A stretch of DNA of 64,000 bases from Mimachlamys varia (Eukaryota > Mollusca > Bivalvia > Pectinida > Pectinidae). Positions 14,786 through 64,000 of this stretch are shown here, piece after piece. The stretch lies in NCBI GenBank assembly GCA_947623455.1, contig OX392532.1, forward strand, positions 49,107,058-49,171,057, in the 5' to 3' direction. The notes below the pieces were generated by a model, which did no database searches, was not told the origin of the DNA, and saw only the letters and a list, made by a program, of their open reading frames with translations. Numbering within the stretch: position 1 is the first letter of the stretch; each line of letters begins with the position of its first letter. Made by a program: the position numbers and the translations under genes.

Positions 14786-16081
14786 GTAGGCTGATAACAC
14801 AATGACATGCTTGTTAAGTGTTTCCTTAACCATGGAAACTATACACCACTCTTAACCTTTGATTAAAGATTACCATTTCTTATCAATTTTCAATCCTCCA
14901 CATATCAAAAACGCATCGTTTATTTCCTAATTGTTTTGTGTCATGGATGGGTTAAGAAATTAATCGATACATGGCAGACATACACCTTGGCATTTATTTC
15001 GTAAACATTGTGTAGCTTATATAGGGTAACATGCCATTTTTGTATTTTCGTTTTGTCTTGTTTTATTCTTTTGTTATCTTTGTTTATTGATTTGTTTCGT
15101 TTTTCAAAGAACAATCGAGCATGTGACATATCAAAAGGACAAAGAAATAGAAAATAAAAGCAGTAATAACAATGAAACCACAAAACAAGTTTTGGCAATG
15201 TTTTCATAGAAACCCTACATTTTAATCAGTTAGGTCAAATCAAAATTCAGGGAACACTTTGAATATCAGTCCAATAAAATCTGTTTCTATTCAACTTCAT
15301 CAAACTGGTTGCAAGTTTCTTAAAGAAGATATGGACATCAATATATATGTTAGGTCACTGAAGCTATACTTTGTTCATCAACATAGATAAGTGCCAAATA
15401 ATGTTGTGGCTCCTAAAAAAGCAAAAATTACTTTGAAGTTGTTATGTGCGGATAATTGTCCACGTAACACCAAAAGGTTTATTAAATTGAATTGAATAAA
15501 GTTGCTAAGCAAGCAAATGATAAATTTGCTTCGCTCCTCTAAGAACTAGACAAATATTTCAGGAACAGTACATTGCATGGGCCTGAGCTTAGTATGTAGT
15601 TTTACAATAAAGCCGCATTTAAACTGAATCAAATTATTCATTAAGATATTGTATTTGACTTTTGTTTAGATCTCATTTGAGAAATACGTTTTGATGAAAC
15701 AACAGCATGTCGCATCAAAACTGTTTTGTTTTTGTTCTACTTATTTTTCTTGATTTCAAATGGTTGACCGTGAAAAGAGCATTTAAAATAAATTAATGTA
15801 AACTTGTACAGATTATAAATAAATAGATGAAAAATGCTTAAAAGGGTAAATCCAAACAAAATGAAAGTTTAGTCAACCTTTACACATTGCACATTGTCCA
15901 TGGTTCTTTTTCAACAATGGAATATCCATGCTTTCACCCAGTTGATAACTGTTCCGTCTTATCTCATTGCAGTTCATAAAATTCTTAAAATACAATTTGT
16001 TCAAGATGCAATAATTATTTAAGCTTGCAAGCATTTGTATATTCATATTGTCTTTCTTTATTTCATATTTATATTCTACAG

Positions 16082-16084
16082 ATC
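16082..16084 (+). other. Candidate 3-nt micro-exon ATC
   Basis: The acceptor ATATTTATATTCTACAG ends at 16081 and the donor GTAAGTACAG starts at 16085. The codon would be Ile. It is the only triplet in the array not ending in G. Confidence 0.35.
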
Positions 16085-16694
16085 GTAAGTACAGTTTTAT
16101 TAAACAATGTTCAAACTTTCCCCTCAAATCACCATACATTTGTTGTGTAAATCATTCTAGACTTTTAACTCGAAGACTTGCTAGTGTTGTCTTTCCTTAA
16201 CCATGATAATTACACACCAGTCTTATCCTTTAATTACATATCACCATGATTAAATCCTATACATATCGGAAATGCACAGTTCTTTCTGAATGGTTTCCTA
16301 GTTGGTGTCATGGTTGGAGTAAGACATACATCGATAAATGGTAAAGCATACACATCGGAATTTATTTCGTAAACCTTGTGTAGCGTATATAGGGTAAAAT
16401 GAGATTGATGGGTTTTAGTTTTGTCATGTAATATTTTTGTTTTTCTTTGTTTCCTTGATTCATTTGTTTTTTTAAGAAAAATCTAGCTCTGACGTATTGA
16501 CTTCAACATGGAATAGAACATAAAACAATAATTACAAAGACACCACAATACATGTACAAAGTTGTGGCAATGTTTTCATGGAAAACCTACCCTTTCATCA
16601 GTTAGGTCAAAACAATATTAAATGAACACTTTGAAAATAACTCTAATAAAATCCTTTTCCTTTCAACCTCCTGATACTCATTGCAGGTTTCTTT

Positions 16695-17077
16695 AAAGGC
16701 CCAATATAGGTAAATTCAGGATGTTTTTTGTGATTCTGAAAAATTTTGAAGAAAAAAAAATTTTGTTAATTACCATGCAAAATTTAGCCTTAACGCTGTA
16801 AACCTGGGAGGTTACTAACAAGCAACTCTTTACAGAAAAATCCAAAGAATTGAAAACAATTCAGATGGGGCCCACTTTAACAACAAGCCGAAGTTAGAAG
16901 ACTGTTAAAAATGGACGCGTGTTTACAAATAGTTTCAACTGCTGCTGTATCGGTAACAGCCTAAGAATTCTTGTTGAATATTGCTGATATCAGTTAATCT
17001 ATAATCTATAATATAAAAAGTTATTATACTTGATTTTCGCTTCAAGTTTTGCCGAAAGTTACGTATATTGGGCCTTT
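16695..17077. mobile_element. Small TIR element (AAAGGCCCAATATA family)
   Basis: The 14-bp perfect terminal repeats are AAAGGCCCAATATA and TATATTGGGCCTTT. It is inserted where other units read TTTCTTTAAGAAGAT, so the duplicated target is TA or TTAA (ambiguous). 383 bp, no coding capacity, therefore non-autonomous. Confidence 0.85.
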
Positions 17078-18490
17078 AAGAAGATATGGACATCCATATT
17101 ATGTTAAGTCACTGAAGCTATCCTTCCAAACAATTCACCCAAATATCCACTCCATCACCATGCAATTGATATGTAAATCATTCTAGGCTTATAACACGAT
17201 GACATGTGTTTCCTTAACAATGGAGATTATACACCACTCTTAACCTTGGATTATAGATTACCATTTCTTACCGAGTTTAAATCCTCCACATATCGAAAAC
17301 GCATCGTTTATTTCCTAATTGTTTTGTTTTTGGTGTCATGGATGGTTTAAGAAATTAATGGATACATGGCAGACATACACCTTGGCATTTATTTCGTAAA
17401 CATTGTGTAGCGTATATAGGGTAACATGCGAGTTTTATTTTCGTTTTGTCCTGTTTTATTTTTTTGTTATCTTTGTTTATTAGTTTGTTCCGTTTTTCAA
17501 AGATCAATCGAGCATGTGACATATCAAAAGGACAAAGAAATAGAAAAACAAAAGCAGTAATAACAATGAAACCACAAAACAAATTTTGGCAATGTTTTCA
17601 TAAAAACCCTACACTTTGATCAGTTAGGTCAAACCAAAATCCAGTGAACACTTTGAAAATCGCTGTAATAAAATCCATTTCCTTTCAACATCATCATACT
17701 CATTGCAAGTTCCTCAAAGAAGATATGGTTATCCATATTATGTTAAGCTACTGAAGTTATTCTTCTTTGTTAATAAACATAGATAAATGCCAAATGATTT
17801 GGTCCGTGATAAGGACAGAATTACTTTGTAGTTGTTATGTCCGAATAATCGTCAACGTAACACAATTATGCTGATCAAATTGAATTGAATGAAGTTGATA
17901 AGCAATCAAATTATTTATTTGATTCACTCCTCTATGAACTACACTCATATTTCAGGAACAGTACATTGCACGTGCCTGAGTTTATTATATAGTATTATGA
18001 TAAATCCGCATCTAAACTGAATCATAATTTTCATTTAGGAGATTTTACTTGGCCTTTCTTTAAATCTGAGAAATTTGAGAAATACATTTTCATGATGAAA
18101 CAGCAATACATATTTAAACTATTTTGTTCTTGTTCTCCATATTCTGCTTAATTGCAACTCTTTAAACATTTAGAGCGAAAACAACATTTCAAATCAATTA
18201 GTGTTCACTTGTACATGTTAGATGAGTTATAGATAAATGAAATGTGTAAATGTGTAATTCCAAACGAAATGAAGTTTATTCGGCCTTAACACGTTGCTCG
18301 TTATCTTTGATTTTTCAACAATGTAGTTTTTATCTTTTGATACAGTTGATAACCGTACCGTCATATCGCGTTGCACTTCGAAACATTCCTAGTATACAAT
18401 TTGTTCCAGATGAAATATTATTTAACTTTGCAATCAGTTGCTTATTCATATTAACTTTCTCTATTTCATTGATTTTTTTGCATTCTACAG

Positions 18491-18493
18491 GGG
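18491..18493 (+). other. Candidate 3-nt micro-exon GGG
   Basis: Acceptor GCATTCTACAG before it and donor GTAAGTACAG from 18494. The codon would be Gly. Same class as 45702 and 60326. Confidence 0.35.
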
Positions 18494-19857: not shown

Positions 19858-19860
19858 ACG
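19858..19860 (+). other. Candidate 3-nt micro-exon ACG
   Basis: Acceptor TTTTGGCATTCTGCAG and donor GTAAGTACAG from 19861. The codon would be Thr. Same class as 32179 and 39269. Confidence 0.35.
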
Positions 19861-20848
19861 GTAAGTACAGTTTTATCCAACAATTTTCACCCAAGTTTCC
19901 ATTCCAATCAACATACATTTCTTGTGTACTTTATTCTTGTCTGTTTAGGCGATGGCTTGCATGTGTTGAAGAAAAAAATAAATCGCATACCAGTCTTAAC
20001 CTTTGATTATATATCATCATTTCTAACCAAGTTTAAATCCTCTAAAATTTCATATATCGGAAATATGTCGCTCATTTCTCATTGATTTTCTTTTTGGCAT
20101 CATAGGTTGTTGAAGTAATAAATAGATGATTGGTAAAGCATACAGTTCGGCATTTATTTCGTATTTATGGTTAAATGCTATTATTATTTTCGTTTTTCTT
20201 GGTATGGTGTGTTTTATATTTTTTCGTTGTTTATTGGTTTGTTTTGATTTTCAAAGAACAATCAAACATGTGACATATCAAATGGATCAAGAACTAGAAA
20301 AGGAAATAACAATGAAACAACAAAACAATGTCATTTCAAAACTATAAATTTTGTCATCATGATAATTACTGTAGGAGTTATCCTAGACATTTCTTGCATA
20401 CAGCACATAAATAACAAAAAAAAATCATTTAACTTACAATGTTGATGTCTTGTATTTTTTAATTTGATTAACATCATTTACACCATTAACGTTTTTTACA
20501 TTTATTTACCAATTTACATTCAACTATATTGAAAAATTGGAGCAATATCCTTTGATAATTATTTGTTTAGGATATATATATTCCCATTGAAGAATTAATA
20601 ACTACTTAATTAAACTAGATATATATTTTTATTAAATACATTCATCCCTCAGACCTGTATATTCGCGCTATAGAGTTTTGTCAACCATTGTTTTTATTTA
20701 ATTTTCTATATATCTAGACCAGTATGTATATCACATGCAACAGTGTTGATATATATATAAGAATTTGAATTTGAATAAAAAAGTAAAACAACATATTTTA
20801 ATTAGGGCCCCGCATCGAGAGATGCGGGTGCCCTATAGTAATCAGGTT

Positions 20849-20884
20849 GTCCGTCTGTCCGTCTGTCTGTCTGTCCGTCTGTCC

Positions 20885-20962
<78 letters not shown>

Positions 20963-20963
20963 A

Positions 20964-21006
<43 letters not shown>

Positions 21007-21030
21007 CTGTCTGTCCGTCCGTCTGTCCGT
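20849..21030. repeat. (GTCT)n / (CCGT) tetranucleotide microsatellite
   Basis: About 180 bp of GTCT repeats with scattered GTCC variants. All six-frame open reading frames here (SVCL or TDRQ repeats) are artefacts of the repeat. Confidence 0.97.
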
Positions 21031-21035
21031 TTTTT

Positions 21036-21383
21036 GTCTTCTGCACAAAAGTGTTTGCAGGAGATGAAGGATTTGTATAAAATTGGAACTGATGATTCCT
21101 CATGCATCCTAGATCACATGTGTAGTATTTCATGCAAATCGGATTCAAAATGGCTGTTAGGCGGCCATATTGGATTTTAACATTAACATGAAAATACTGA
21201 ATCTATGCTGTCTTCTGCACAAAAATGTTTTCAGGAGATGAAGGATTTGTATCAAATTGGAACTGATGATTCCTCATTCATCCTAGATCACATGTGTAGT
21301 ATTTCATGCAAATCGGATTCAAAATGGCTGTTAGGCGGCCATATTGGATTTTAACATTAACATGAAAATACTGAATCTTTGCT
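21036..21383. repeat. Tandem duplication, period 174 bp, two copies
   Basis: Copies start at 21036 and 21210 with GTCTTCTGCACAAAA and both end AAAATACTGAATCT.TGCTG. They differ at only a few bases. Confidence 0.93.
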
Positions 21384-21642
21384 GTTTTTAACTGTTCCCT
21401 AATCGATTATGCAAAATAGTGAACAAATAAACCAAGAGTTAACTGACAATGATCAAACTCATAGTTCAAGGTCACAAGTTCAAAGGTCAACGGTCAAGGT
21501 TATCCTGGATAGGCTACAAAATGCCAGGTAATCGACCCTTTTGGATTTTAGCCTTGAGAGTGCCAGATTTACTCAAATTACAACTGTACCGACACATCGC
21601 AGCGGCTCCCACATTGATCATGTTTGGACTAGAGACATTCCT

Positions 21643-22350
21643 GAGGGAAGCCGAACACAATGGTACAACTCACGAAACCGTGCGTTGCCATGGTAAGGAA
21701 ATGGGGGCTTCTGATTGGTCGGAATTTAGATATTGTTCGATTTCAGCGAAAATTGGTAAATATGGGTATTGAGGGAAGCCTAACACAATGGTACCACTTT
21801 CGAAACTGTCCTTTGCCATGGTTACGAAATGGAGGCTTCTGATTGGTCACAACTTACATATTGTTTTATCTTGGCGAACATTGATACATATGGGTTTTGA
21901 GGGAAACCGAACACAATGGTACAACTCACGAAACCGTGCGTTGCCATGGTAACGAAATGGAGGCTTCTGATTGGTCAGAATTTAGATATTGTTCGATTTC
22001 AACGAAAATTGGTAAATATGGGTATTGAGGGAAGCCTAACACAAAGGTACCACTTTCAAAACTGTCCGTTGCCATGGTTACGAAATGGAGGCTTCTCATT
22101 GATCAAAATTAAGATATTGTTTGATTTCAGTGAAAATTGGTACATAGGGGTATTGAGGGAAGCCAAACACAATGGTTTAACTTTCGAAACTGTCTGTTGC
22201 CATGATAACGAAATGCAGGTTTCTGATTGGTCGAAATTTAAATATTGTTCGATTTCGGCAAAAAGTGGTACATAGGGGTATTAAGGGAAACCAAACACAA
22301 TGGTACCATTTAAGAAAACATCAGTTGTCATGGTAAAAAATAGAGGCTTC
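21643..22350. repeat. 128-bp tandem repeat, about 5.5 copies
   Basis: GAGGGAARCC starts recur at 21643, 21771, 21899, 22027, 22155 and 22284, spacing 128-129 bp. Copies carry GTTGCCATGGTAAC-like and CTGATTGGTC-like motifs at fixed spacing, with decay in the last copies. Confidence 0.92.
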
Positions 22351-24162
22351 TGCACATACACATATACACATATACAGTACTATTACACTCTTACATTAGC
22401 ATAATTTACGACTGTTGGGGTAGTTTGGGGGACATTATAGTAACGGCCGCCGTTACAATTAGTACTTGTTTATAATTGTTTCTAACACTTACAAATTTAA
22501 CATCACTGTACTATAACTCTAAAATACCAATATTCATTGGAGCATCAGACATATTGCGGGGCCCTTTCTGACGTATCAGTGTTCTAGTTTAGTCAGGTTT
22601 TTCAGTATGGGTCAGATGTTTTGATTTGACCCTCAGGCCTCAGGTAATTACCTGACCTGTCTCAGCCTCATCTCGGAACACCTGCTGACGTAAGCCTGTC
22701 AGTGACACAATTGCGGTGTGAATTCCTCACCTGTCTATCACTGGTCAAATTTGAAACCAATTGATTAAAGGGCTCAGTTGGAGATGACCAGGAAATAGAA
22801 TAGAATAAAATTTAAAAAATAATTTATTAGAAAACAATATAAGTTTATATCGGTCCTTTACCAAATTCTGATTTTCTTAAATATTGTACTTAAAATAAGT
22901 ATTTTATGACACTTGAATTAATACAATTAAATGATACATTTTGATTTTTAAATCTTTTCATATATATATACTTATCAAATGAATACATGATGAAAAATTA
23001 CCTACAGTTTATATTGGGCGAAATATTGTTACATTGTTCGCTCAGTCGCTAAATGCAGTTTGATATACAATTCAACTAAAATTCATTATACTTAATTTTT
23101 TCTAATAATCAGTATAAAAGAATTCAATTAAAAAATTATGCATTTCCCATATGAAGGCCTAAATATTTTTCATTCTGGTGCTTATTTAAGTAACAAACTA
23201 AATTAAGACTCCTTCATTACACAACTTCAATAGTATGAACGTAAAAATACAGATAAATCATATTATATCTGTACAGGTAAGGACACAGGTAGATATGGAC
23301 ACTCCCATTACCTGTATGTTTTTTTGTTTTTTTTTTTTTTGTGGTCACACCTGACTGGACGTAGTGCTCTACTAGTTTACCTGTAGTTTAAATGTAGTGC
23401 ACTACTAGTTTAAACGTAGTGCACTCCTACTGCACTTGGGTGCAAAGGTTAGCTTACACTCAACTGTAGGTCAAAACAAAATTCAGTGAAACCCTTTGAA
23501 AATCACTCTATTAAAATCCATTTCCTTTTAACTTCATTATACTCATTGTAAGTCTAAGAAGATATGAACATCCATATTATGTTAAGCTACTGAAGTTATC
23601 CTTTGTTAACCAACATAGAATAATGCCAAATGATGTGATCCTTGATAAGAACAGAATTATTTTGTAGTTGTTAAGTCCGGACAATCGTCAACGTAACACA
23701 GATATATTTATCAAATTATATTGAATGAAGTTACTAAGCAAGAGAATGATTAATTTGATTCACTCCTATAAGAACTACACTCATATTTCAGGAACAGTCT
23801 ATTGTATGTGCCTAAGCTTATTATATAGTGTTCTAATAAATTCGCATCTAAACTGAATCACAATTTGTATTAAGGAGATAGTACCTGACATTTGTTTAAA
23901 TCTGAGAAATTTGAGAAATAATTTTCTATTATGCAACAGCAATTCATATTAAAACTATTCTGTTCTGCTTAATTGCAACTCTTTAAAAATTTAGAGCGAA
24001 ACAAACTTTTAAAATCAATTAATGATCACTTGTACATATTACACAGTTATAGATAAATAAAATGTGTAAATATGCAAATCCAAACGAAATGAAATTTATT
24101 CAGCCTTAACACGTTGCTCGTTATCAATGTTTTTTCAACAATATAGCCTTCAAGTTTTGACA

Positions 24163-25510: not shown

Positions 25511-25513
25511 AGG
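25511..25513 (+). other. Candidate 3-nt micro-exon AGG
   Basis: Acceptor TTTTGGCATTCTGCAG and donor GTAAGTACAG from 25514. The codon would be Arg. Confidence 0.35.
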
Positions 25514-27104: not shown

Positions 27105-27135
27105 TGAAAAATACTTTTTTAAATACAGTTTTATC
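27105..27135 (+). repeat. Deletion junction removing the module (class D2)
   Basis: ATTTGAAAAATAC runs directly into TTTTTTAAATACAG; acceptor and triplet are gone. The same junction recurs at about 61918-61940, showing the two units share descent. Confidence 0.8.
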
Positions 27136-29113
27136 AAACAATTGTCATCCAAATTTCCAATTCCATCACCATACATTTGCTCTGTAAATCATTCCAGACT
27201 TTTAACTAGAACACTTGCTAATGTTGTCTTTCCTTAACCATGGGAATTACACACCAGTTTTATCCTTTTATTACATGTCACCATGTTTAAATCCTATACA
27301 TATCGGAAATGCACAGTTATTTCTGAATGGTTTCCTATTTAGTGTCATGGGTGGATTAAGGCATAAATTGATAAATGGTGAAGCATACACATCGGCATTT
27401 ATTTCGTAAACCTTCTGTAGCGTATATAGGGTAAAATGAGATTAATGTGTTTTTACTTTTGTCTTGTAATGTTTTTTGTTTTTCTTTGTTTGCTTGTTTC
27501 ATTTGTTTATGAAGAATAATCTAACTATGACGTATTGACTTCAACATGGAATAGAACATAAAACAATAATTACAAAGACACCACAATACATGTACAAAGT
27601 TGTGGCAATGTTTTCATGGATAACCTACCCTTTGATCAGTTAGGTCAAAACAATATTCAATGAACACTTTGAAAATAATTCTAATAAAATCCATTTCCTT
27701 TCAACTTCATCATACGCATTGCAGGTTTCTCAAAGAAGATATTGACATCCTTATTATGTTTAGTCACGGAACTTATCCTCCCAAACAATTTTCACCCAAA
27801 TCTTTACTCAAATCACCATATATTTGTCATGTAAATCATTCTAGGCTTATAACACGATGTCACGCTTGTGCTGTTTTTCCTTGACCATGGAAATTAAACA
27901 CCAGTCTTAACCTTTAAGTTAAATTCTCCACATATCGAAAACGTATCTTTTATTTCCAAATGGTTTTGTTTTTCATGCCATGGATGGTTTAAGAAATAAA
28001 TCGATACATGGTAAACATACACCTCGGCATTTATTTTGTAAACATTGTGAGCGTATATAGGTTAAAATACGATTTTTGTTTTTTCGTTCTGTCTTGTTTT
28101 ATTATTTTGTTATCTCTGTTTTTTGGTTTGTTTTGTTTTTCAAAGAACTGTCGAGCATGTGACATATCAAAAGGACAAAGAAATAGATAACAAAAGCAGT
28201 AATAACAATGAAACCACAAAACAAAGTTTTGGCAATGATTGTATAGACAACTTACCCTTTGATCAGTAAGGTCAAATCAAAATTCAGTGAACACTTTGAA
28301 AATCACGGTAATAAAATCCATTTCTATTCAACCTCATCATACTCATTGCAAAGCTCCTTAAAGAAGATATTGACATCAATATTTATATTAGGTCACTGAA
28401 GCTATACTTTGTTCATCAACATAGATAAGTGCCAAAATATGTTGTGGCTCCTTAAAATGTAAAATTACTTTGTAGTTTTTATGTTCTGATAATCGTCCAC
28501 GTAACACCAAAATGTTTATTACATTGAATTGAATGAAGTTGCTAAGCAAGCGAATGATAAATTTGCTTCACTCCTCTAAGAACTAGACTAATATTTCAGG
28601 ATCAGTACATTACATGTGCCTGAGTTTAGTATGTACTGTTATAATAAAGCCGCATTTAAACTGAATCAAAATATTCATTGAGATATTGTATTTGACTTTT
28701 GTTTAGATCTCCTTTTAGAAATACGTTTTGATGAAACAACAGCATTTCGCATCAAAACTGTTTTGTTTTTGTTCTACTTATTTTGCTTGATTGCAAATGG
28801 TTGACCGTGAAAAGAACATTTAAAATCAATTAATGTAAACTTGTACAGATTATACATAGATGAAAAATGCTTAAAGGGTAAATCCAAACAAAATGAAAGT
28901 TTAGTCAACCTTAACACATTGCACATTGTCCATGGTTCTTTTTCAATAATGGAATCTCCATGCTTTCACCCAGTTGATAACTGTTTCGTCTTATCTCATT
29001 GCAGTTCAAAAACTTCTTAATATACAATTTGTTCAAAATGCAATAGTTATTTAAGCTTGCGAACATTTGTAAATTCATATTGTCTTTCTTTATTTCATAT
29101 TTTTATTCCACAG

Positions 29114-29116
29114 CCG
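29114..29116 (+). other. Candidate 3-nt micro-exon CCG
   Basis: Acceptor TTTTTATTCCACAG and donor GTAAGTACAG from 29117. The codon would be Pro. Confidence 0.35.
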
Positions 29117-30814
29117 GTAAGTACAGTTTTATTAAACAATGTTCAAACTTTCCCCTCAAATCAACATACATTTGTTGTGTATATCATTCGAGACTTTAAA
29201 CTCGAACACTTGCTAATGTTGTCTTTCCTTAACCATGGGAATTACAAACCAGTCTTATCTTTTTCTTACATGTCACCATATTTAAATCCTATACATATCG
29301 GAAATGCACAGTTCTTTCTGAATGGTTTCCTATTTGGTGTCATTGGTGGACTAAGACATACATCAATAATTGGTAAAGCATACACATCGGCATTTATTTC
29401 GTAAACCTTGTGTAACGTATAAAGGGTAAAATGAGATTAATGAGTTTTTAATTTTGTCTTGTAATTTTTTTTTTCTTTGTTTGCTTGTTTCATTTGTTTA
29501 TGAAGAATAATCTTGCTATGACGTATTGACTTCAACATGGAATAGAACATAAAACAATAATTACAAAGACACCACAATACATGTACAAAGTTGTGGCAAT
29601 GTTTTCATGGAAAACCTACCCTTTCATCAGTTAGATCAAAACAATATTCAATGAACACTTTGAAAATAACTCTAATAAAATCCATTTCCTTTCAACTTCA
29701 TCATACTCATTGAACGTTTCTCAAAGAAGATATTGACATCCATATTATGTTTAGTCACTGAACTTATCCTCCCAAACAATTCTCACCCAAATATTTACTC
29801 AAATCACCATATATTTGTTATGTAAATCATTCTAGGCTTATAACACCATGTCATGCTTGTGCTGTTTTTTCTTGACCATAGAAATTAAACACCAGTCTTA
29901 ACCTTTGATTTAAGTTACATTCTCCACATATCGAAAACGTATCGTTTATTTCCGAATGGTTTTGTTTTTGGTGTCATGGATGGTTTAAGAAATAAATTTA
30001 TACATGGCAGACATACACCTTGGCATTTATTTCGTAAACATTGTGTGGCGTATATAGGCTAAAATGCCATTTTTATTTTTTCGTTTTGTCTTGTTTTATT
30101 CTTTTGTTATCTTTGTTTAATGGATTGTTTCGTTTTTCAAAGAACAATCGAGCATGTGACATATCAAAAGGACAAAGAAAAGGAAAACAAAAGCAGTAAT
30201 AACAATGAAATCACAAAACAAAGTTTTGGCAATGTTTTCATAGAAACCCCACACTTTGATCAGTTAGGTCAAACCAAAAGTCAGTGAACACTTTGAATTT
30301 CACTGTAATAAATTCATTTTCTTTCAACATCATCATACTCATTGCAAGTTTCTCAAACAGATATGGACATCCATATTATGTTTAGCTACTGAAGTTATTC
30401 TTTGTTAACCAACATAGAATAATGCCAAATTATTTGGTCCTTGATAAGAACAGTACATTGCATGTGCCTGAGTTTACTATATTGTTATAATAAATCCGCA
30501 TCTAAACTGAGTCATAGTTTTTATTAAAGAGATTGTACCTGACATTTGTTTAAATCTGAGAAATTTGAGAAATAATTTTTGATTATGCAACAGCAATTCA
30601 TATTAAAACTATTTTGTTCTGCTTAATTGCAACTCTTTAAAAATCTAGAGCGAAACCAACTTTTAAAATCAATTAATGATCACTTGTACATATTACACAG
30701 TTATAGATAAATAAAATGTGTAAATATGCAAATCCAAACGAAATGAAATGTATTCAGCCTTAACACGTTGCTCGTTATGAATGTTTTTTCAACAATATAG
30801 TCTTCAAGTTTTGA

Positions 30815-30845
30815 CACAGTTGATGGCCACCCAGATCACCATATA
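30815..30845 (+). repeat. Deletion junction, class D1
   Basis: Same CACAGTTGATGGCCACCCAG fusion as at 24163; no module in this unit. Confidence 0.8.
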
Positions 30846-32178
30846 TGTGTTGTGTAAATCATTCTAAACTTTTAACTTGATGACTCGCTATTTTGTGTTT
30901 CATCAACCATTGAAATAACACACTTGTCTTAACATTTGATTATGTGTCACCATTTTCTAACCTATTTTGAATCCTTCATATATCGGAAATGCATCCTTTA
31001 TGTCTTAATGATTTCGTTTAAGGTGTCGTGGGTAGTTTAGGACATATATTGATAAATGGTAAAGCTCACACGTCGGCATTCATTTCGTAATCCTTTTGTA
31101 GCGTATACAGGGTAAAATGACATTCTTGTCTTGCAATCTTTTTTTTTCCTGTTTTGTTTCAGTTTTATTATCATTATTTTTTTTATTTATTTATTGATTG
31201 ATTTTATTGATTTATTATTATTTTTTAACAAACAATCTAGCCTATGACAAATCATGGACCATGAAATAGAAAATAAAAACAGTAATAACAATGACACCAC
31301 AATGCAAAGTTTTACCAATGTTTTCATGGAAAAATGTTACTTTGATCGGTTATAATAAAACTTAATTCAGTGAACAGTTTAGAAATCACTCTCATTAAAT
31401 CCTTTTTCTGTCAACCTCATCATACTCACTGCAAGTTTTGCAAAGAAGAAATGGACATCAATATCTATGTTAAGTTACTGAAGTTATCCTTTGTTCATCA
31501 ACAAAGAATAATGCCAAATGATAAAACCCCCGTTATCAAGCAAAATTACTTTGTATTTGTTAAGTCCAGATAATAGCGCCTATATGCTGTCTAAATTGAA
31601 TTGAATTAAGTTGCTAAGCAAGCGAATTATTAATTTGATTCACTAAAAGCACTTCACTCAAATCTTAGGAATAGCACATTGCATAAGCCTTAGTTTCGTA
31701 TGTAGTGTTATGATAAAACCGTTTTTTCAACTCAATCATCATTTTCAATAATGAAATCGTATTTGGCCTGTTTTCAATCTCATTTTAGAAATACATTTGT
31801 TGATACAATGATACAATATTTCACATCAAATCTACTTTGTTCTCGTTGTGCTAATTCTGTTCAATTGCAACTGTTTAAATGTAAAATGTGAAAATAGCAT
31901 AGAAATAAATAATTATAGTTAAATAAATTTGCTTAAAGGTGTAAATCCAAACAAAATTAACGTTTAGTCAACCTTAACATGTTGCTCAGTATCGATGGGA
32001 TTTTTTTTTTATTAAACAATAGGGTCTTCATAATTTGATAACCTTAGCGTCGGATCTTGTTGTACTTCAAAACATTCTGAATATGCAATGTGTTCTAGAT
32101 GCAATAGTTATTTAAGGTTGCAACATATGCTTATTCACATTAACTCTGAATTCTTTATTTCATTTTGGCATTCTGCAG

Positions 32179-32181
32179 ACG
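32179..32181 (+). other. Candidate 3-nt micro-exon ACG
   Basis: Acceptor TTTTGGCATTCTGCAG and donor GTAAGTACAG from 32182. The codon would be Thr. Confidence 0.35.
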
Positions 32182-34191
32182 GTAAGTACAGTTTTATCCA
32201 ACAATTTTCACCCAAGTTTCCATTCCAATCACCATACCTTTCTTGTGTACATTATTCTTGTCTGTTTAGGCAATGGCTTGCAAGTGTTGCAGAAAAAAAT
32301 GAAATTACATACCAGTCTTAACTTTTGATATATATCATCGTTTCTAACCAAGTATAAATCCTCTGAAATTTCACATTTCGGAAATATGTTGCTTATTACT
32401 CATGGGTTTTCTTTATGGACCTATAGGTGGTTTAAGTCATGGTAGATGATTGGTAAAGCATACAGTTCGGCATTTATATCGCATTTAGGGTAAAATGCTA
32501 TTATTATTTTCGTTTTTCTTGTTCTGGTTTGTTTTATATTGTTTTCTTTGCTTATTGATTTGTTTTGATTTGCAAAGAACAAACAAACATGTGACATATC
32601 AAATGGACCAAGAGCTCGAAAAGAAAATAACAATGAAACAACATTACAAAGTTTAGGCAATGTTTTTTTTATGGAAAACCGATACTTTGATGATAAGTTG
32701 GTTCGAAACACAATTCAGTGAACACCTTGAAAATAACTATAATAAAATCCACTTCCTCTCAACTTCATCATACTCATTTCTGGTTTCTTTAAGAAGATAT
32801 TGACATCCATATTATGTTGAGTCACTAAAGCTATCCTTCCAAACAATTCACCAAAATATCCCCTCCATCACCATATATTTGTTATGTAAATCATTCCAGG
32901 CCTTTAACACGATGACATGCTTGTGTTGTGTTTCCGTAACCATGGCAATAACACACCAGTCTTAACCTTTGATTAAAGGTTACCATTTCTTACCAAGTTA
33001 AATCCTCCACATATCGAAAACGCATCGTTTATTTCTTAATGGTTTTGTTTTTAGTGACAGAGATGGTTTAAGAAATAAATCGATACATGGTGAACATTTA
33101 TTTTGTAAACAATGTGTAGCTTATTTTGGTTCAAATGCGATTTTTTGGGTTATTTTCGTATTGTCTTGCTTTATTAATTTGTTATCTTTGTTTATTAGTT
33201 TGTTTCGTTTTTCAAAGAACAATCGAGCATGTGACATATCAAAAGGACAAAGAAATAGAAAATAAAAGCAGTAATAGCAATAAAACCACAAAGCAAATTT
33301 TGGCAATGTTTTCATAAAAACCCTACATTTTGATCAATTATATCAAAACAAAATTCAGTAACCACTTCGAAATCACTTTTATAAAATTCTTTCCTTTCAA
33401 CATCATCATACGCATTGCAAGTTTCTCAAATAAGATATGGACTCCCATGTTTATGTTAAGTCACTAAAGTTATCCTTTGTTAATCAACATAGAATAATGC
33501 CAAATGAGGATAAGAACATAATTACTTTGTAGTTGTTACGTCCGGATAATCGTCAACGTAACACAAATATGTCGATTAAATTGAATTGAATGAAATTACT
33601 AAGCAATCGAATTATTTATTTGATTCACTCCTCTAGAAACTACACTTATATTTTAGGAACAGTACATTGTTTGTGCCTTAGTTTATGATGTAGTGTTATA
33701 ATAAGGCCACATTTAAATTGAATCATCATTTTCATTAAGGAGATTGTATTTGATCTCTGTTTAAATTTCATTTGAAAAATACATTTTGATGATACAACAG
33801 CATTTTACATTAAAAAATAGTTTACTCTTGTTCAGCTGAGTCTGCTTAATTACAACTGTTTAAGCATTTAGAGTGTAAATAGCATTTAAAACCAATTTAT
33901 GTTCAGTTGTACATATCAGATGATTAATACATTATACAAACTGCATACATGTGTAAATCCAAACAAAATTAAAATTTAGTCAACTTTAACACATTGCGCA
34001 TGTGCAACTTTTTTTTTCTCTAACGATAAAGTCTTTATCATTTCACACAATTGATTACTGTTCATCAACTGTGATGATTCCGTTGCACTTCCAAACATTC
34101 TTAATAATCAATTTGTTCCTGCAATATTTTTGTTATGGTTGAAAACATTTGCTTATTCATTTTGATTTGTTTCGTTTTCTTTATTCTATAG

Positions 34192-34194
34192 TCG
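34192..34194 (+). other. Candidate 3-nt micro-exon TCG
   Basis: Acceptor TTTCTTTATTCTATAG and donor GTAAATACAG from 34195. The codon would be Ser. The donor is weaker than GTAAGT. Confidence 0.3.
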
Positions 34195-36204
34195 GTAAAT
34201 ACAGTTTTATCAAACAATTGTCATCCAAATTTCCAATTCCATCACCATACATTTGCTCTGTAAATCATTCTAAACTTTTAAATAGAACACTTGCTAATGT
34301 TGTCTTTCCTTAACCATGATAATTACACACCAGTCTTATCCTTGTATTACATGTTACCATGTTTAAATCATATACATATAGGAAATGCACAGTTCTTTCT
34401 GAATGGTTTCCTATTTGGTGTCATGGGTGGATTAAGGCATAAATCAATAAATGGTAAAGCATACACATCGGCATTTATTTCGTAAACATTGTGTAGCGTA
34501 TATAGGGTAAAATAAGTTTAATGGGTTTTTAGTTTTGTCTTGTAATGTTTTTTTGTTTTTCTTTGTTTGCTTATTTCATTTTTTTTTTTTTTTTATGATT
34601 AATCTAGCTATGACGTACAGTGTATTGACTTCAACATGGAATAGAACATAAAAACAATAATTACAATGAAACCACAATACATGTACAAAGTTGTGGCAAT
34701 GTTTTCATGGAAAACCTACCCTTTGATCAGTTAGGTCAAAACAATATTCAATGAACACTTTGAAAATTACTCTAATAAAATTAATTTCCTTTCAACTTCA
34801 TCATACGCATTGCAAGTTTCTCAAAGAAGATATTGACATCCATATTATGTTTAGTCACTGAACTTATCCTCCCAAACAATTTTCACCCAAATATTTACTC
34901 AAATCACCATATATTTGTTATGTAAATCATTCTAGGCTTATAACACGATGTCACGCTTGTGCTGTTTTTCCTTGACCATGGAAATTAAACACCAGTCTTA
35001 ACCTTTAAGTTAAATTCTCCACATATCGAAAACGTATCGTTTATTTCCAAATGGTTTTGTTTTTCGTGCCATGGATGGTTTAAGAAATAAATCGATACAT
35101 GGTTAACATACACCTCGGCATTTATTTTGTTAACATTGTGAGCGTATATAGGTTAAAATACGATTTTTGTTTTTTCGTTCTGTCTTGTTTTATTATTTTG
35201 TTATCTCTGTTTTTTGGTTTGTTTTGTTTTTCAAAGAACTGTCGAGCATGTGACATATCAAAAGGACAAAGAAATAGATAACAAAAGCAGTAATAACAAT
35301 GAAACCACAAAACAAAGTTTTGACAATGATTGCATAGACAACTTACCCTTTGATCAGTAAGGTCAAATCAAAATTCAGTGATCACTTTGAAAAGCACTGT
35401 AATAAAATCCATTTCTATTCAACCTCATCATACTCATTGCAAAGTTCCTTAAAGAAGATATTGACATCAATATTTATATTAGGTCGCTGAAGCTATACTG
35501 TGTTCATCAACATAGATAAGTGCCAAAATATGTTGTGGCTCCGTAAAATGTAAAATTACTTTGTAGTTTTTATGTGCTGATAATCGTCAACGTAACACCA
35601 AAATGTTTATTAAATTGAATTGAATGAAGTTGCTAAGCAAGCGAATGATAAATTTGCTTCACTCCTCTAAGAACTAGACTAATATTTCAGGATCAGTACA
35701 TTACATGTGCCTGAGTTTAGAATGTACTGTTATAATAAAGTCGCATTTAAACTGAATCAAAATATTCATTGAGATATTGTATTTGACTTTTGTTTAGATC
35801 TCCTTTTAGAAATACGTTTTGATGAAACAACAGCATTTCGCATCAAAACTGTTTTGTTTTTGTTCTACTTATTTTGCTTGATTGCAAATGGTTGACCGTG
35901 AAAAGAACATTTAAAATCAATTAATGTAAACTTGTACAGATTATACATAGATGAAAAATGCTTAAAGGGTAAATCCAAACAAAATGAAAGTTTAGTCAAC
36001 CTTAACACATTGCACATTGTCCATGGTTCTTTTTCAATAATGGAATCTCCATGCTTTCACCCAGTTGATAACTGTTTCGTCTTATCTCATTGCAGTTCAA
36101 AAACTTCTTAATATACAATTTGTTCAAAATGCAATAGTTATTTAAGCTTGCGAACATTTGTAAATTCATATTGTCTTTCTTTATTTCATATTTTTATTCC
36201 ACAG

Positions 36205-36207
36205 CCG
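36205..36207 (+). other. Candidate 3-nt micro-exon CCG
   Basis: Acceptor TTTTTATTCCACAG and donor GTAAGTACAG from 36208. Duplicate of 29114, 7,091 bp apart. Confidence 0.35.
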
Positions 36208-37904: not shown

Positions 37905-37935
37905 CACAGTTGATGGCCACCCAGATCACCATATA
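37905..37935 (+). repeat. Deletion junction, class D1
   Basis: Duplicate of the junction at 30815; no module in this unit. Confidence 0.8.
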
Positions 37936-39268: not shown

Positions 39269-39271
39269 ACG
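39269..39271 (+). other. Candidate 3-nt micro-exon ACG
   Basis: Acceptor TTTTGGCATTCTGCAG and donor GTAAGTACAG from 39272. Duplicate of 32179, 7,090 bp apart. Confidence 0.35.
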
Positions 39272-41281: not shown

Positions 41282-41284
41282 TCG
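41282..41284 (+). other. Candidate 3-nt micro-exon TCG
   Basis: Acceptor TTTATTCTATAG and donor GTAAATACAG from 41285. Duplicate of 34192. Confidence 0.3.
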
Positions 41285-43294
41285 GTAAATACAGTTTTAT
41301 CAAACAATTGTCATCCAAATTTCCAATTCCATCACCATACATTTGCTCTGTAAATCATTCTAAACTTTTAAATAGAACACTTGCTAATGTTGTCTTTCCT
41401 TAACCATGATAATTACACACCAGTCTTATCCTTGTATTACATGTTACCATGTTTAAATCATATACATATAGGAAATGCACAGTTCTTTCTGAATGGTTTC
41501 CTATTTGGTGTCATGGGTGGATTAAGGCATAAATCAATAAATGGTAAAGCATACACATCGGCATTTATTTCGTAAACATTGTGTAGCGTATATAGGGTAA
41601 AATAAGTTTAATGGGTTTTTAGTTTTGTCTTGTAATGTTTTTTTGTTTTTCTTTGTTTGCTTATTTCATTTTTTTTTTTTTTTTATGATTAATCTAGCTA
41701 TGACGTACAGTGTATTGACTTCAACATGGAATAGAACATAAAAACAATAATTACAATGAAACCACAATACATGTACAAAGTTGTGGCAATGTTTTCATGG
41801 AAAACCTACCCTTTGATCAGTTAGGTCAAAACAATATTCAATGAACACTTTGAAAATAACTCTAATAAAATTAATTTCCTTTCAACTTCATCATACGCAT
41901 TGCAAGTTTCTCAAAGAAGATATTGACATCCATATTATGTTTAGTCACTGAACTTATCCTCCCAAACAATTTTCACCCAAATATTTACTCAAATCACCAT
42001 ATATTTGTTATGTAAATCATTCTAGGCTTATAACACGATGTCACGCTTGTGCTGTTTTTCCTTGACCATGGAAATTAAACACCAGTCTTAACCTTTAAGT
42101 TAAATTCTCCACATATCGAAAACGTATCGTTTATTTCCAAATGGTTTTGTTTTTCGTGCCATGGATGGTTTAAGAAATAAATCGATACATGGTTAACATA
42201 CACCTCGGCATTTATTTTGTAAACATTGTGAGCGTATATAGGTTAAAATACGATTTTTGTTTTTTCGTTCTGTCTTGTTTTATTATTTTGTTATCTCTGT
42301 TTTTTGGTTTGTTTTGTTTTTCAAAGAACTGTCGAGCATGTGACATATCAAAAGGACAAAGAAATAGATAACAAAAGCAGTAATAACAATGAAACCACAA
42401 AACAAAGTTTTGACAATGATTGCATAGACAACTTACCCTTTGATCAGTAAGGTCAAATCAAAATTCAGTGATCACTTTGAAAAGCACTGTAATAAAATCC
42501 ATTTCTATTCAACCTCATCATACTCATTGCAAAGTTCCTTAAAGAAGATATTGACATCAATATTTATATTAGGTCGCTGAAGCTATACTGTGTTCATCAA
42601 CATAGATAAGTGCCAAAATATGTTGTGGCTCCGTAAAATGTAAAATTACTTTGTAGTTTTTATGTGCTGATAATCGTCAACGTAACACCAAAATGTTTAT
42701 TAAATTGAATTGAATGAAGTTGCTAAGCAAGCGAATGATAAATTTGCTTCACTCCTCTAAGAACTAGACTAATATTTCAGGATCAGTACATTACATGTGC
42801 TTGAGTTTAGTATGTAGTGTTATAATAAAGCCGCATTTAAACTGAATCAAAATATTCATTGAGATATTGTATTTGACTTTTGTTTAGATCTCCTTTTAGA
42901 AATACGTTTTGATGAAACAACAGCATTTCGCATCAAAACTGTTTTGTTTTTGTTCTACTTATTTTGCTTGATTGCAAATGGTTGACCGTGAAAAGAACAT
43001 TTAAAATCAATTAATGTAAACTTGTACAGATTATACATAGATGAAAAATGCTTAAAGGGTAAATCCAAACAAAATGAAAGTTTAGTCAACCTTAACACAT
43101 TGCACATTGTCAATGGTTCTTTTTCAACAATGGAATCTCCATGCTTTCACCCAGTTGATAACTGTTTCGTCTTATCTCATTGCAGTTCAAAAACTTCTTA
43201 ATATACAATTTATTCAAAATGCAATAGTTATTTAAGCTTGCGAACATTTGTATATTCATATTGTCTTTCTTTATTTCATATTTTTATTCCACAG

Positions 43295-43297
43295 CCG
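43295..43297 (+). other. Candidate 3-nt micro-exon CCG
   Basis: Acceptor TTTTTATTCCACAG and donor GTAAGTACAG from 43298. Third CCG module in the 7.09-kb periodicity, at its right edge. Confidence 0.35.
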
Positions 43298-43907
43298 GTA
43301 AGTACAGTTTTATTAAACAATGTTCAAACTTTCCCCTCAAATCAACATACATTTGTTGTGTATATCATTCGAGACTTTTAACTCGAACACTTGCTAATGT
43401 TGTCTTTCCTTAACCATGGGAATTACACACCAGTCTTATCCTTTTATTACATGTCACCATGTTTAAATCCTATACATATCGGAAATGCACAGTTCTTTCT
43501 GAATGGTTTCCTATTTGGTGTCATTGGTGGACTAAGACATACATCAATAATTGGTAAAGCATACACATCGGCATTTATTTCGTAAACCTTGTGTAACGTA
43601 TAAAGGGTAAAATGAGATTAATGGGTTTTAGTTTTGTCATGTAATATTTTAGTTTTTCTTTGTTTGCTTGTTTCATTTGTTTTTTGAAGAATAATCTAGC
43701 TATGACGTATTGACTTTAACATGGAATAGAACATAAAACAATAATTACAAAGACACCACAATACATGTACAAAGTTTTGGCAATGTTTTCATGGAAAACC
43801 TACCCTTTGATCAGTTAGGTCAAAACAATATTCAATGAACAATATGAAAATTACTCTAATAAAATCCATTTCCTTTCAACCTCCTGATACTCATTGCGGG
43901 TTTCTTT

Positions 43908-45701: not shown

Positions 45702-45704
45702 GGG
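45702..45704 (+). other. Candidate 3-nt micro-exon GGG
   Basis: Acceptor TTTTTGCATTCTACAG and donor GTAAGTACAG from 45705. The codon would be Gly. Counterpart of 18491. Confidence 0.35.
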
Positions 45705-47072: not shown

Positions 47073-47075
47073 GAG
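47073..47075 (+). other. Decayed module, triplet GAG, donor lost
   Basis: The acceptor CATTCTGCAG is intact but the donor reads GAAAGT instead of GTAAGT. Counterpart of 19858 in the duplicated segment. Confidence 0.3.
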
Positions 47076-48306: not shown

Positions 48307-48340
48307 CACAGTTGATGGCCATCCAGATCACCATATATGT
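48307..48340 (+). repeat. Deletion junction, class D1
   Basis: CACAGTTGATGGCCATCCAG; same fusion as at 24163 with one base difference. Confidence 0.8.
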
Positions 48341-49669: not shown

Positions 49670-49672
49670 TCG
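49670..49672 (+). other. Decayed module, triplet TCG, donor lost
   Basis: The acceptor ACATTCTATAG is intact; the donor reads TTAAAT instead of GTAAAT. Confidence 0.3.
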
Positions 49673-51688: not shown

Positions 51689-51691
51689 TGG
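51689..51691 (+). other. Candidate 3-nt micro-exon TGG
   Basis: Acceptor TTTTTATTCTACAG and donor GTAAGTACAG from 51692. The codon would be Trp. Confidence 0.35.
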
Positions 51692-53127: not shown

Positions 53128-53163
53128 TGGGTTTTGCCGAAAGTTACGTATATTGGGCCTTTA
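53128..53163 (+). repeat. Chimeric junction: module acceptor fused to TIR-element end
   Basis: ATTCTACAG-TGG is followed by GTTTTGCCGAAAG, the right end of the TIR element, instead of GTAAGTACAG. The donor GT dinucleotide remains by chance but its consensus is lost. Confidence 0.75.
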
Positions 53164-53348: not shown

Positions 53349-53351
53349 AGG
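53349..53351 (+). other. Decayed module, triplet AGG, donor lost
   Basis: The acceptor TTTTTGCATTCTACAG is intact; the donor reads TTAAGT. Unit upstream is shortened by a fusion TACATCACTC-TTTTTGCATT. Confidence 0.3.
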
Positions 53352-54587: not shown

Positions 54588-54590
54588 AGG
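54588..54590 (+). other. Candidate 3-nt micro-exon AGG
   Basis: Acceptor TTTTTGCATTCTGCAG and donor GTAAGTACAG from 54591. The codon would be Arg. Confidence 0.35.
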
Positions 54591-55971: not shown

Positions 55972-55974
55972 TCG
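55972..55974 (+). other. Candidate 3-nt micro-exon TCG
   Basis: Acceptor TTTTTTTACATTCTATAG and donor GTAAATACAG from 55975. The codon would be Ser. Confidence 0.3.
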
Positions 55975-58439: not shown

Positions 58440-59090
58440 TAACCATGCAAAAATAAGCCTCAAACGAAGTAAACCTGAGTGGTAACTAAGAAGAAACTCT
58501 TGACAAAAAAATCAGAAGAATTGAAAATAATTCAGATAGGGCCCACAGTAACAACGCGCCGAAGTTAGAAGACAAATCCAGTTGATAACCATGTAAAATT
58601 GAGCCTCAAACGAGTAAACCTGAGCAGTAACTATCAAGAAACTCTTGACAGAAAAATCCAAAGAATTGAAAACAATTTAGATGCGGCCTACTTCAACAAC
58701 AAGCCGAAGTTAGAAGACAGTTCAAAATTGACGCGGGTTTACAAATACCGAGTTTCAACTGCTGCTGTACCGGTAACAGCGTAAGAATTGTTGTTGAATA
58801 TTGCCGATATCAGTTAATCTTAACTAAATCTATAAATATAAAAAAAGTTATTATACTTGATTTTCGCTTCAAGTTTTGCCGAAAGTTACGTATATTGGGC
58901 CTTTAAGAAGATGTTGACATCCATATTATGTTAAGTCACTGAAGCTATCTTCCAAACAATTAACCCAAATATCCACTCCATCACCATGTATTTGATATGT
59001 AAATTATTCTAGGTTTATAACACGATGACATGCTTGTGTTGTTTTTCCGTAACCATGGAAATTATACATCACTCTTTTTGCATTCTACAG

Positions 59091-59093
59091 AGG
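59091..59093 (+). other. Decayed module, triplet AGG, donor lost
   Basis: Acceptor TTTTTGCATTCTACAG intact; donor reads TTAAGT. Shares both the donor mutation and the upstream fusion with 53349, so one is a duplicate of the other. Confidence 0.3.
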
Positions 59094-60325: not shown

Positions 60326-60328
60326 GGG
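60326..60328 (+). other. Candidate 3-nt micro-exon GGG
   Basis: Acceptor TTTTTGCATTCTGCAG and donor GTAAGTACAG from 60329. The codon would be Gly. Last intact module in the window. Confidence 0.35.
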
Positions 60329-61916: not shown

Positions 61917-61942
61917 TTTGAAAAATACTTTTTTAAATACAG
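61917..61942 (+). repeat. Deletion junction, class D2
   Basis: Same fusion as at 27105, 34.8 kb to the left; no module in this unit. Confidence 0.8.
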
Positions 61943-63639
61943 TTTTATCAACCAATTGTCATCCAAATTTCCAATTCCATCACCATACATTTGCTCTGTA
62001 AATCATTCCAGACTTTTAACTAGAACACTTGCTAATGTTGTCTTTCCTTAACCATGGGAATTACACACCAGTTTTATCCTTGTATTACATGTCACCATGT
62101 TTAAATCCTATACATATCGGAAATGCACAGTTCTTTCTGAATGGTTTCCTATTTGGTGTCATGGGTGGATTAAGGCATAAATCAATAAATGGTGAAGCAT
62201 ACACAACGGCATTTTTTTCGTAAACCTTGTGTAGCGTATATAGGGTAAAATGAGATTAATGTGTTTTTAGTTTTGTCTTGTAATGTTTTTTGTTTTTCTT
62301 TGTTTGCTTATTTCATTTGTTTTTTGAAGAATAATCTAACTATGACATATTGATTTCAACATGGAATAGAACATAAAACAATAATTACAAAGACACCACA
62401 ATACATGTACAAAGTTGTGGCAATGTTTTCATGGAAAACCTACCCTTTCATCAGTTAGATCAAAACAATATTCAATGAACACTTTGAAAATAACTCTAAT
62501 AAAATCCATTTCCTTTCAACTTCATCATACGCATTGCAAGTTTCTCAAAGAAGATATTGACATCCATATTATGTTTAGTCACTGAACTTATCCTCCCAAA
62601 CAATTCTCACCCAAATATTTACTCAAATTACCATGTATTTGTTATGTAAATCATTCTAGGCTTATAACACCATGTCATGCTTGTGCTGTTTTTTCTTGAC
62701 CATAGAAATTAAACACCAGTCTTAACCTTTGATTTAAGTTACATTCTCCACATATCGAAAACGTATCGTTTATTTCCAAATGGTTTTGTTTTTGGTGTCA
62801 TGGATGGTTTAAGAAATAAATTTATACATGGTAGACATACACCTTGGCATTTATTTCGTAAACATTGTGTGGCGTATATAGGCTAAAATGCCATTTTTAT
62901 TTTTTCGTTTTATCTTGTTTTATTCTTTTGTTATCTTTGTTTAATGGATTGTTTCGTTTTTCAAAGAACAATCGAGCATGTGATATATCAAAAGGACAAA
63001 GAAAAGGAAAACAAAAGCAGTAATAACAATGAAATCACAAAACAAAGTTTTGGCAATGTTTTCATAGAAACCCCACACTTTGATCAGTTAGGTCAAACCA
63101 AAAGTCAGTGAACACTTTGAATATCACTGTAATAAATTCATTTTCTTTCAACATCATCATACTCATTGCAAGTTTCTCAAACAGATATGGACATCCATAT
63201 TATGTTAAGCTACTGAAGTTATTCTTTGTTAACCAACATAGAATAATGCCAAATTATTTGGTCCTTGATAAGAACAGTACATTGCATGTGCCTGAGCTTA
63301 CTATATTGTTATAATAAATCCGCATCTAAACTGAGTCATAGTTTTTATTAAAGAGATTGTACCTGAGATTTGTTTAAATCTGAGAAATTTGAGAAATATT
63401 TTTTTATTATGCAACAGCAATTCATATTAAAACTATTTTGTTCTGCTTAATTGCAACTCTTTAAAAATCTAGAGCGAAACCAACTTTTAAAATCAATTAA
63501 TGATCACTTGTACATATTACACAGTTATAGATAAATAAAATGTGTAAATATGCAAATCCAAACGAAATGAAATTTATTCAGCCTTAACACGTTGCTCGTA
63601 ATCAATGTTTTTTCAACAATATAGTCTTCATCTTTTGAC

Positions 63640-63668
63640 ACAGTTGATGGCCACTCAGATCACCATAT
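63640..63668 (+). repeat. Deletion junction, class D1
   Basis: CACAGTTGATGGCCACTCAG; fifth occurrence of the D1 fusion. Confidence 0.8.
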
Positions 63669-64000
63669 ATGTGTTGTGTAAATCATTCTAAACTTTTAAC
63701 TTGATGACTCGCTAATTTTGTGTTTCTTCAACCATTGAAATAATACACTAGTCTTAACATTTGATTATAGGTCACCATTCCTAACCTATTTTGAATCCTT
63801 CATATATCGGTAATCCATCGTTTATGTCTTAATGGTTTCGTTTAAGGTGTCATGGGTAGTTGAAGACATATATCGATAAATGGTGAAACTTACTCGTCGG
63901 CATTCATTTCGTAAACCTTTTGTAGCGTATATAGGGTAAAATGTCATTCTTGTCTTGCAATCATTTTTTCCTGTTTTGTTTCAGTTTTATTATTATCAGT

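Follow-up and report, generated by a model that had tools for sequence, protein, structure and literature searches.

A putative micro-exon gene with an array of candidate one-codon exons in the bivalve Mimachlamys varia

The stretch of Mimachlamys varia DNA analysed here (contig OX392532.1 of assembly GCA_947623455.1, forward-strand positions 49,107,058 to 49,171,057; all 64,000 nt of it are called the window) contains an array of related repeat units, which we followed from about 14.8 kb to the window end. Sixteen of the units carry an intact module in which exactly three bases lie between a splice acceptor and a splice donor consensus, and short candidate exons lie upstream on the same strand. 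We put at slightly better than an even chance the reading that the locus is a micro-exon gene in which one-codon exons form an array.

The modules and their array

The array and its modules are listed below; 'pattern' marks triplets found by an exact-pattern search and 'matrix' those also recovered with a splice-site matrix.

14789..64000, plus strand: mosaic array of unit copies, extending past the window end
about 5324..5399, plus strand: unit fragment outside the array, opening with a GTAAGTG donor, the homologue of that in the module; no AG immediately before it
16082..16084, plus strand: one-codon exon candidate ATC (I); pattern
18491..18493, plus strand: one-codon exon candidate GGG (G); pattern, matrix
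19858..19860, plus strand: one-codon exon candidate ACG (T); pattern, matrix
25511..25513, plus strand: one-codon exon candidate AGG (R); pattern, matrix
29114..29116, plus strand: one-codon exon candidate CCG (P); pattern, matrix
32179..32181, plus strand: one-codon exon candidate ACG (T); pattern, matrix
34192..34194, plus strand: one-codon exon candidate TCG (S); pattern; TAG acceptor, GTAAAT donor
36205..36207, plus strand: one-codon exon candidate CCG (P); pattern, matrix
39269..39271, plus strand: one-codon exon candidate ACG (T); pattern, matrix
41282..41284, plus strand: one-codon exon candidate TCG (S); pattern
43295..43297, plus strand: one-codon exon candidate CCG (P); pattern, matrix
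45702..45704, plus strand: one-codon exon candidate GGG (G); pattern, matrix
51689..51691, plus strand: one-codon exon candidate TGG (W); pattern
54588..54590, plus strand: one-codon exon candidate AGG (R); pattern, matrix
55972..55974, plus strand: one-codon exon candidate TCG (S); pattern
60326..60328, plus strand: one-codon exon candidate GGG (G); pattern, matrix
47073..47075, plus strand: decayed module, triplet GAG; donor GT changed to GA
49670..49672, plus strand: decayed module, triplet TCG; donor GT changed to TT
53349..53351, plus strand: decayed module, triplet AGG; donor GT changed to TT, sequence upstream of the acceptor replaced
59091..59093, plus strand: decayed module, triplet AGG; donor GT changed to TT, sequence upstream of the acceptor replaced
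27119..27140, plus strand: module without acceptor and triplet; from module projection
61933..61954, plus strand: module without acceptor and triplet; from module projection

A preliminary description of this DNA had reported 16 intact acceptor-NNN-donor modules, and all 16 triplets were found where it placed them, each exactly three bases long, with a T-rich tract ending in CAG or TAG before it and GTAAGTACAG or GTAAATACAG after it. The exact pattern YAGNNNGTAARTACAG occurs 16 times in the window, always on the plus strand and never on the minus strand; its mean count in 100 shuffles was 0.01, with a maximum of 1. The 16 copies are paralogues, so the count establishes the module as real but is no proof of 16 independent origins. 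The U2-type consensus, YAG before the triplet and GTAAR after it, is present in 16 of the 20 triplet-bearing copies.

Both strands were also scanned with a splice-site matrix of the general consensus. For exons of 3-60 nt with a joint score above 19, the scan returned 11 candidates on the plus strand, every one of them a 3-nt array module, and none on the minus strand; it missed five modules, namely the ATC and TGG copies and the three with TAG/GTAAAT. With the joint score lowered to above 14.5 and lengths of 1-120 nt allowed, 12 of the 16 intact modules were recovered (11 of 16 above 19), among 32 candidates on the plus strand of the array, and the minus strand gave 15, none of 3 nt. The other plus-strand candidates above 14.5 include single ones of 23, 101 and 104 nt, together with several more located in the interruptions of the array; on the minus strand there are a 1-nt/101-nt pair in four unit copies (28256, 35347, 42437 and 50824) and candidates of 33-34 nt in two. 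No other repeated exon candidate above this score was seen to keep its frame across classes of units, the minus strand having been looked at only briefly.

The array had been taken for a tandem repeat of roughly 1.37 kb. It is instead a mosaic, with neighbouring intact modules 1,367-5,987 bp apart and with a higher-order repeat of 7,090 bp, which reflects recent duplication inside the array; at 29117-43298 the copies of this repeat are 98-100% alike around the modules. The 16 intact unit copies have 62-100% similarity over about 1.2 kb. Six modules are broken, four keeping acceptor and triplet without the donor GT and two being without acceptor and triplet; an orphan acceptor half is present near 53128. 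Projection of the module onto all copies revealed a further 23 unit copies without a module, which show two kinds of junction and probably derive from a few deletions that were duplicated afterwards. The interruption of the array at 20848-22352 holds a microsatellite made of 45 copies of TGTC, together with a 174-bp duplication and a tandem repeat of 128 bp, and a short tandem repeat of TTTCAGGTCAT, in about four copies, lies directly ahead of the array at 14702-14744. Unit fragments also precede the array, at about 5324-5399, 8585-8777, 9079-9205 and about 12100-12297. Since these are split by the Penelope-like and piggyBac-like elements described below, an older portion of the array is likely to have started near 5.3 kb, at the GTAAGTG donor.

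By similarity, the triplet-bearing copies fall into four classes, in which each copy is named by the first base after its triplet (triplet 16082..16084 is that of copy 16085).

Class A: 16085 (ATC); 29117, 36208 and 43298 (CCG); 51692 (TGG)
Class B: 19861, 32182 and 39272 (ACG); 25514 and 54591 (AGG); 60329 (GGG); decayed 47076 (GAG)
Class C: 34195, 41285, 55975 and decayed 49673 (all TCG)
Class D: 18494 and 45705 (GGG); decayed 53352 and 59094 (AGG)

Rates of change in the triplet, the donor and the flanks

Within each of classes A, B and D the triplet varies, in several instances between units with flanks more than 90% alike; between copies 16085 and 29117, for example, 37 of 468 flank bases differ, along with all three triplet bases. 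Eight distinct triplets, encoding eight residues, are present among the 20 triplet-bearing copies, from which TAG, the sole stop among NNG codons, is absent. Of the 16 intact copies, 15 have G as the third base, matching the donor consensus.

Steps per column were counted on trees built from the flanks, with positions -45 to +20 excluded. With the 13 copies that remain when three near-identical ones are set aside from the intact 16, and over 411 columns, triplet positions 1 and 2 took 5 steps each and position 3 took 1, no other column exceeding 4; the first two positions together total 10 steps versus 6 for the next adjacent pair. They were again the two highest columns with 18 copies and, with 15 copies and a tree built with the module included, the sole columns of 700 with 6 steps. 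When trees for the 16 intact copies were bootstrapped, the triplet pair was unmatched by any other of 668 adjacent pairs in 60 of 60 trees, and within class A alone the triplet is the unique top window. Without a tree the pair still leads, though narrowly: by heterozygosity triplet position 1 ranks first of 681 columns, tied with column +259, and the triplet pair ranks first of 668 adjacent pairs (1.266, next 1.258) and, by contrast with neighbouring columns, first of 572 (0.533, next 0.465).

The donor block behaves in the opposite manner. In the 13 copies, positions +0 to +16 show 0.18 steps per column, versus 0.94 in the background (Mann-Whitney 9e-5) and 0.81 locally (Mann-Whitney 5e-4). 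Across classes, 0.2-2% of 16-column windows are as slow. Over the 120 pairs of intact modules, which are not independent, differences amount to 12812/53793 (23.8%) in the flanks, 374/3465 (10.8%) in the splice signals and 177/360 (49.2%) in the triplet, the flanking unit serving as a rough neutral yardstick. The triplet forms a hypervariable island of two bases, next to a stretch that ranks among the best conserved in the unit. Purifying selection on the splice signals is supported by the comparison among paralogues, though it is not visible within single classes. Slow signals together with fast, amino-acid-changing positions are the trace to be expected of diversifying selection on a translated 3-nt exon; such an exon would predict the pattern, and a passive satellite would not. 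The ten bases that follow donor position +5, ACAGTTTTAT (16085-61949), are kept in all 22 donor-side copies, six decayed ones included, which exceeds what the donor consensus needs and may point to a splicing enhancer.

Some further features near the module resemble those of eMIC-dependent microexons. In all 13 copies examined, at least 38 nt separate the end of the nearest upstream AG from the end of the acceptor (median 57); this evidence is modest, because 22% of AG-to-AG intervals across the array reach the length of the shortest of these AG-free zones. Windows of 32 columns that are AG-free in all 13 copies number 9 of 726, four of them abutting the acceptor. A CTAAC or TTAAC motif begins 34-40 nt upstream in 6 of the 13 copies and TGC occurs within 12 nt of the acceptor in 7 (classes B and D), classes A and C having neither feature. 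A conserved RNA fold around the module was set aside, the consensus fold of the 13 sequences being weak (-3.8 kcal/mol). An array of structured-RNA or small-RNA genes was discarded, as Rfam gave no match for the window at gathering score and, for 28000-36500, no match even at E up to 1. The search for a docking complement of the donor block gave one minus-strand match with two mismatches, where 3.4 are expected by chance on both strands (one block was checked). Some 28-nt inverted matches occur within the array.

Upstream candidate exons and neighbouring elements

The window would hold the 5' part of the putative gene, the 3' part of which falls beyond it. The candidate exons upstream of the array are as follows.

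299..325, plus strand: candidate part of the first coding exon, a 27-nt stretch reading MEKKIKELE; strong donor GTAAGA at 326 (score 10.9); ATG 299 preceded by an in-frame stop
614..625, plus strand: candidate 12-nt exon, ERCF; acceptor 1.6 and donor 4.3, both weak
1702..1734, plus strand: candidate 33-nt exon, GCAKPKKRCGC; acceptor 5.1, donor 4.5
2780..2800, plus strand: candidate 21-nt exon, KTCPKCY; acceptor 6.1, donor 5.7
3131..3154, plus strand: candidate 24-nt exon, HKGTDFKD; acceptor 3.5, donor 7.5
5279..5284, plus strand: possible 6-nt exon, HV, tentative; acceptor 6.9, donor 5.6

The exons of 12, 33, 21 and 24 nt had been described as all phase 0, which holds if ATG 299 is the start; their splice scores are modest. 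Joined, the upstream candidates read MEKKIKELEERCFGCAKPKKRCGCKTCPKCYHKGTDFKD; they are weak but coherent and would code a Cys-rich peptide, the best match of which in the PDB is a PHD finger (E 0.55, not significant). A scan of positions 1-5000 for open phase-0 candidates with lengths divisible by three returned 6, versus a shuffle mean of 0.6, with none of 200 shuffles reaching 6; one of the six is an alternative acceptor and one an unrelated 3-nt match. The same scan over 1-14700 in all frames gave 19 candidates on the plus strand and 13 on the minus strand. The excess in the first 5 kb is supportive, not decisive.

Several probable mobile elements lie upstream of the array. On the minus strand at 5859-8351, a single frame is divided by a stop into two open stretches, which give a reverse transcriptase match below the Pfam cut-off; we take this element to be a Penelope-like retroelement. 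It has 1,104 relatives at E up to 1e-20, and among the 120 matches listed the best named is from the brittle star Amphiura filiformis, with identity of 54-55% across 95-96% of the query sequence, followed by hemichordate, frog, fish, amphioxus and others. A broken transposase occupies 9671-11340 on the plus strand, amid old unit fragments; two of its three open stretches match DDE_Tnp_1_7 (E 6e-40 and 3e-16), and it is presumably of the piggyBac type. A short open stretch at 4449-4715 (plus strand), for which Pfam gave no match, resembles, in our assumption, the end of a LINE reverse transcriptase.

Proposed mechanism, alternatives and known systems

We propose that the plus strand carries the 5' part of an animal micro-exon gene, with short, symmetrical, phase-0 exons encoding MEKKIKELE-ERCF-GCAKPKKRCGC-KTCPKCY-HKGTDFKD, and, downstream, an array of 3-nt exons that would have been generated by repeated duplication of the unit. 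Each intact unit has a T-rich tract and an AG acceptor, followed by a strong donor, GTAAGT or GTAAAT; with three bases between the two sites, inclusion would add exactly one amino acid and keep the frame. Purifying selection would keep the splice signals, the codon being driven to vary. The sequence shows the modules, their conservation among paralogues and the excess variability of the triplet; transcription and splicing of the modules, a shared gene with the upstream exons and an adaptive cause of the variation are what we infer. Were the exons alternatives, each transcript would gain one residue from I, G, T, R, P, S and W; were they joined in series, the 16 intact triplets in order would read IGTRPTSPTSPGWRSG, which is Pro/Thr/Ser-rich and linker-like. 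Steric problems with successive 3-nt exons would favour choice or stepwise splicing. More specifically, the array may be one of codon cassettes, i.e. at least 16 interchangeable one-codon exons with fixed signals and diversifying codons, offering a menu of residues or residue-by-residue assembly; we regard this proposal as plausible, with rather less than an even chance of being right.

Exons of 3 nt lie near the limit of spliceosomal exon definition, and those examples that we came across occur singly. If the proposal is true, the array would show selection on one-residue exons, would constitute a natural experiment on the recognition of 3-nt exons and would represent a new way of varying a protein one residue at a time. 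Exons this small tend to escape ordinary annotation, and related arrays could be overlooked.

Several observations weigh against a gene with one-codon exons. With all 16 intact copies and 695 columns, column +259 has 6 steps, two more columns tie at 5, and the triplet's total of 11 is equalled by a 3-column window at +345; within class B alone the triplet ties with other windows; and in the tree-free analysis triplet position 2 alone ranks 68 of 681, the lead of the pair (1.266 versus 1.258) being narrow. Within single classes, 14% (A) and 22% (B) of windows are as slow as the donor block, which is then not unusual, and the retention of ACAGTTTTAT even in decayed copies implies that conservation there is not wholly due to splicing. 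The frequency of long AG gaps in the array, given above, belongs here too. Loss of modules is evidently tolerated: the donor is broken in 4 of 20 triplet copies, 2 copies are without acceptor and 23 without module. The upstream exon candidates have weak splice scores, and the threshold of the scan that returned six of them was chosen to admit the weakest upstream exon of the preliminary description; for the predicted upstream peptide, neither a Pfam family nor a homologue was found, and no signal peptide was seen in the first exon by eye, without a predictor. Splicing of successive 3-nt exons is mechanistically hard, and the class A exon candidates of 110-112 nt discussed below would compete for the same donor, at a lower score.

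The most substantial alternative, which we consider unlikely though well short of negligible, is that the array is a relic, an intronic satellite grown from one duplicated exon-intron piece, with modules that owe their exon-like look to descent and are now unspliced, and with triplet variation that is chance or old. The many copies that are broken or without a module are consistent with such an origin, as are the recent 7,090-bp duplications, which copy modules passively; neutral drift, however, predicts neither a triplet pair that exceeds all other adjacent pairs nor an abutting donor that is near-frozen across classes. The layout of the module, with its acceptor close to its donor, resembles that of recursive splice sites, and the sites are strong and the intron would be long; within one very long intron the modules might act at RNA level, either as near-zero-length ratchet points in recursive splicing or as decoy splice sites, in which case the triplet need not code. 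We think this improbable, as the gap is 3 nt and not 0 in all 16 modules and as the two free bases outpace the flanks, for which the model supplies no driver. A variable dinucleotide between fixed arms would suit the hypermutable or recombining core of a DNA-level recombination, insertion or mutation hot spot as well as it suits a codon. The arms, however, match the acceptor and donor consensus and the T tract and are not inverted repeats by eye, and a mutation hot spot could speed two bases, yet nothing would require it to fall precisely between AG and GT; such a site is thus very improbable.

We ascribe an equally small probability to an exon longer than 3 nt, running either from an upstream acceptor to the module donor or from the module acceptor to a downstream donor. 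The one-codon interpretation of the preliminary description is partly supported, by the variability of the triplet beside a conserved donor, but it has to contend with an upstream TTGCAG acceptor in all five class A copies, which would give an exon sharing the module donor, of 112 nt in four copies and 110 nt in one (scores 9.5-11.9). This acceptor is confined to class A, the homologous position reading AC in the other 11 of the 16 copies; neither 110 nor 112 is divisible by 3, and the exons starting at 15973, 29005, 36096 and 43186 have stops in all three frames, the one at 51582 having two frames open. Weaker upstream acceptors would give 83-84 nt in two class D copies and 104 nt in one class B copy. 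A GTAAATC donor lies downstream in 7 of 16 copies and would give exons of 63, 65 or 68 nt, but it is absent from the other 9 and its frame differs between classes. Neither version explains why the variable island is confined to the triplet. There is a precedent in the 3-nt exon of Drosophila homothorax, which is the start of a 48-nt exon (PMC7392893).

In comparing one-codon exons in an array with known systems, a literature search, from whose reach subscription papers mostly lay outside, returned no description of an array of 3-nt exons. Mutually exclusive arrays of the Dscam type are similar in their tandem duplicated exons, conserved splice signals and diversified coding content, but their exons are of ordinary size.

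Exons of one codon or less include the 3-nt micro-Ex8 of homothorax (PMC7392893), a 3-bp exon of RPS24 and 1-nt exons of plant APC11 and VPS55 (PMC8831610); these are single and conserved, and not arrayed or hypervariable. Neuronal microexons that depend on eMIC are characterised by an AG exclusion zone, a UGC near the 3' splice site and a strong branch point, and in flies by weak donors (PMC8797185). The first three features are present here in part, whereas the donors here are strong and TGC lies near the acceptor in just 7 of 13 copies.

The nearest kind is represented by the micro-exon genes (MEGs) of flatworms (Schistosoma, Hymenolepis and Echinococcus), with exons of 3-81 bp (PMC10526429). 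In PMC7653826, MEGs are defined by at least seven exons, at least half of them micro-exons of less than 70 nt and divisible by 3, in a run of at least four, and exon skipping is described as yielding proteins that differ by a single residue; raised dN/dS and one exon duplication associated with a transposable element, in MEG-3, are described in PMC4350168. Set against the run of at least four exons of less than 70 nt divisible by 3, the present locus offers the four upstream candidates and the 16 array modules, all predicted. Runs of short exons divisible by 3, long introns, protein variation and fast evolution would be points of likeness. Unlike the flatworm genes, the locus shows by eye no sign of a secreted N-terminus, and here it is the candidate 3-nt exon itself that has been amplified, with 16 intact copies in one array.

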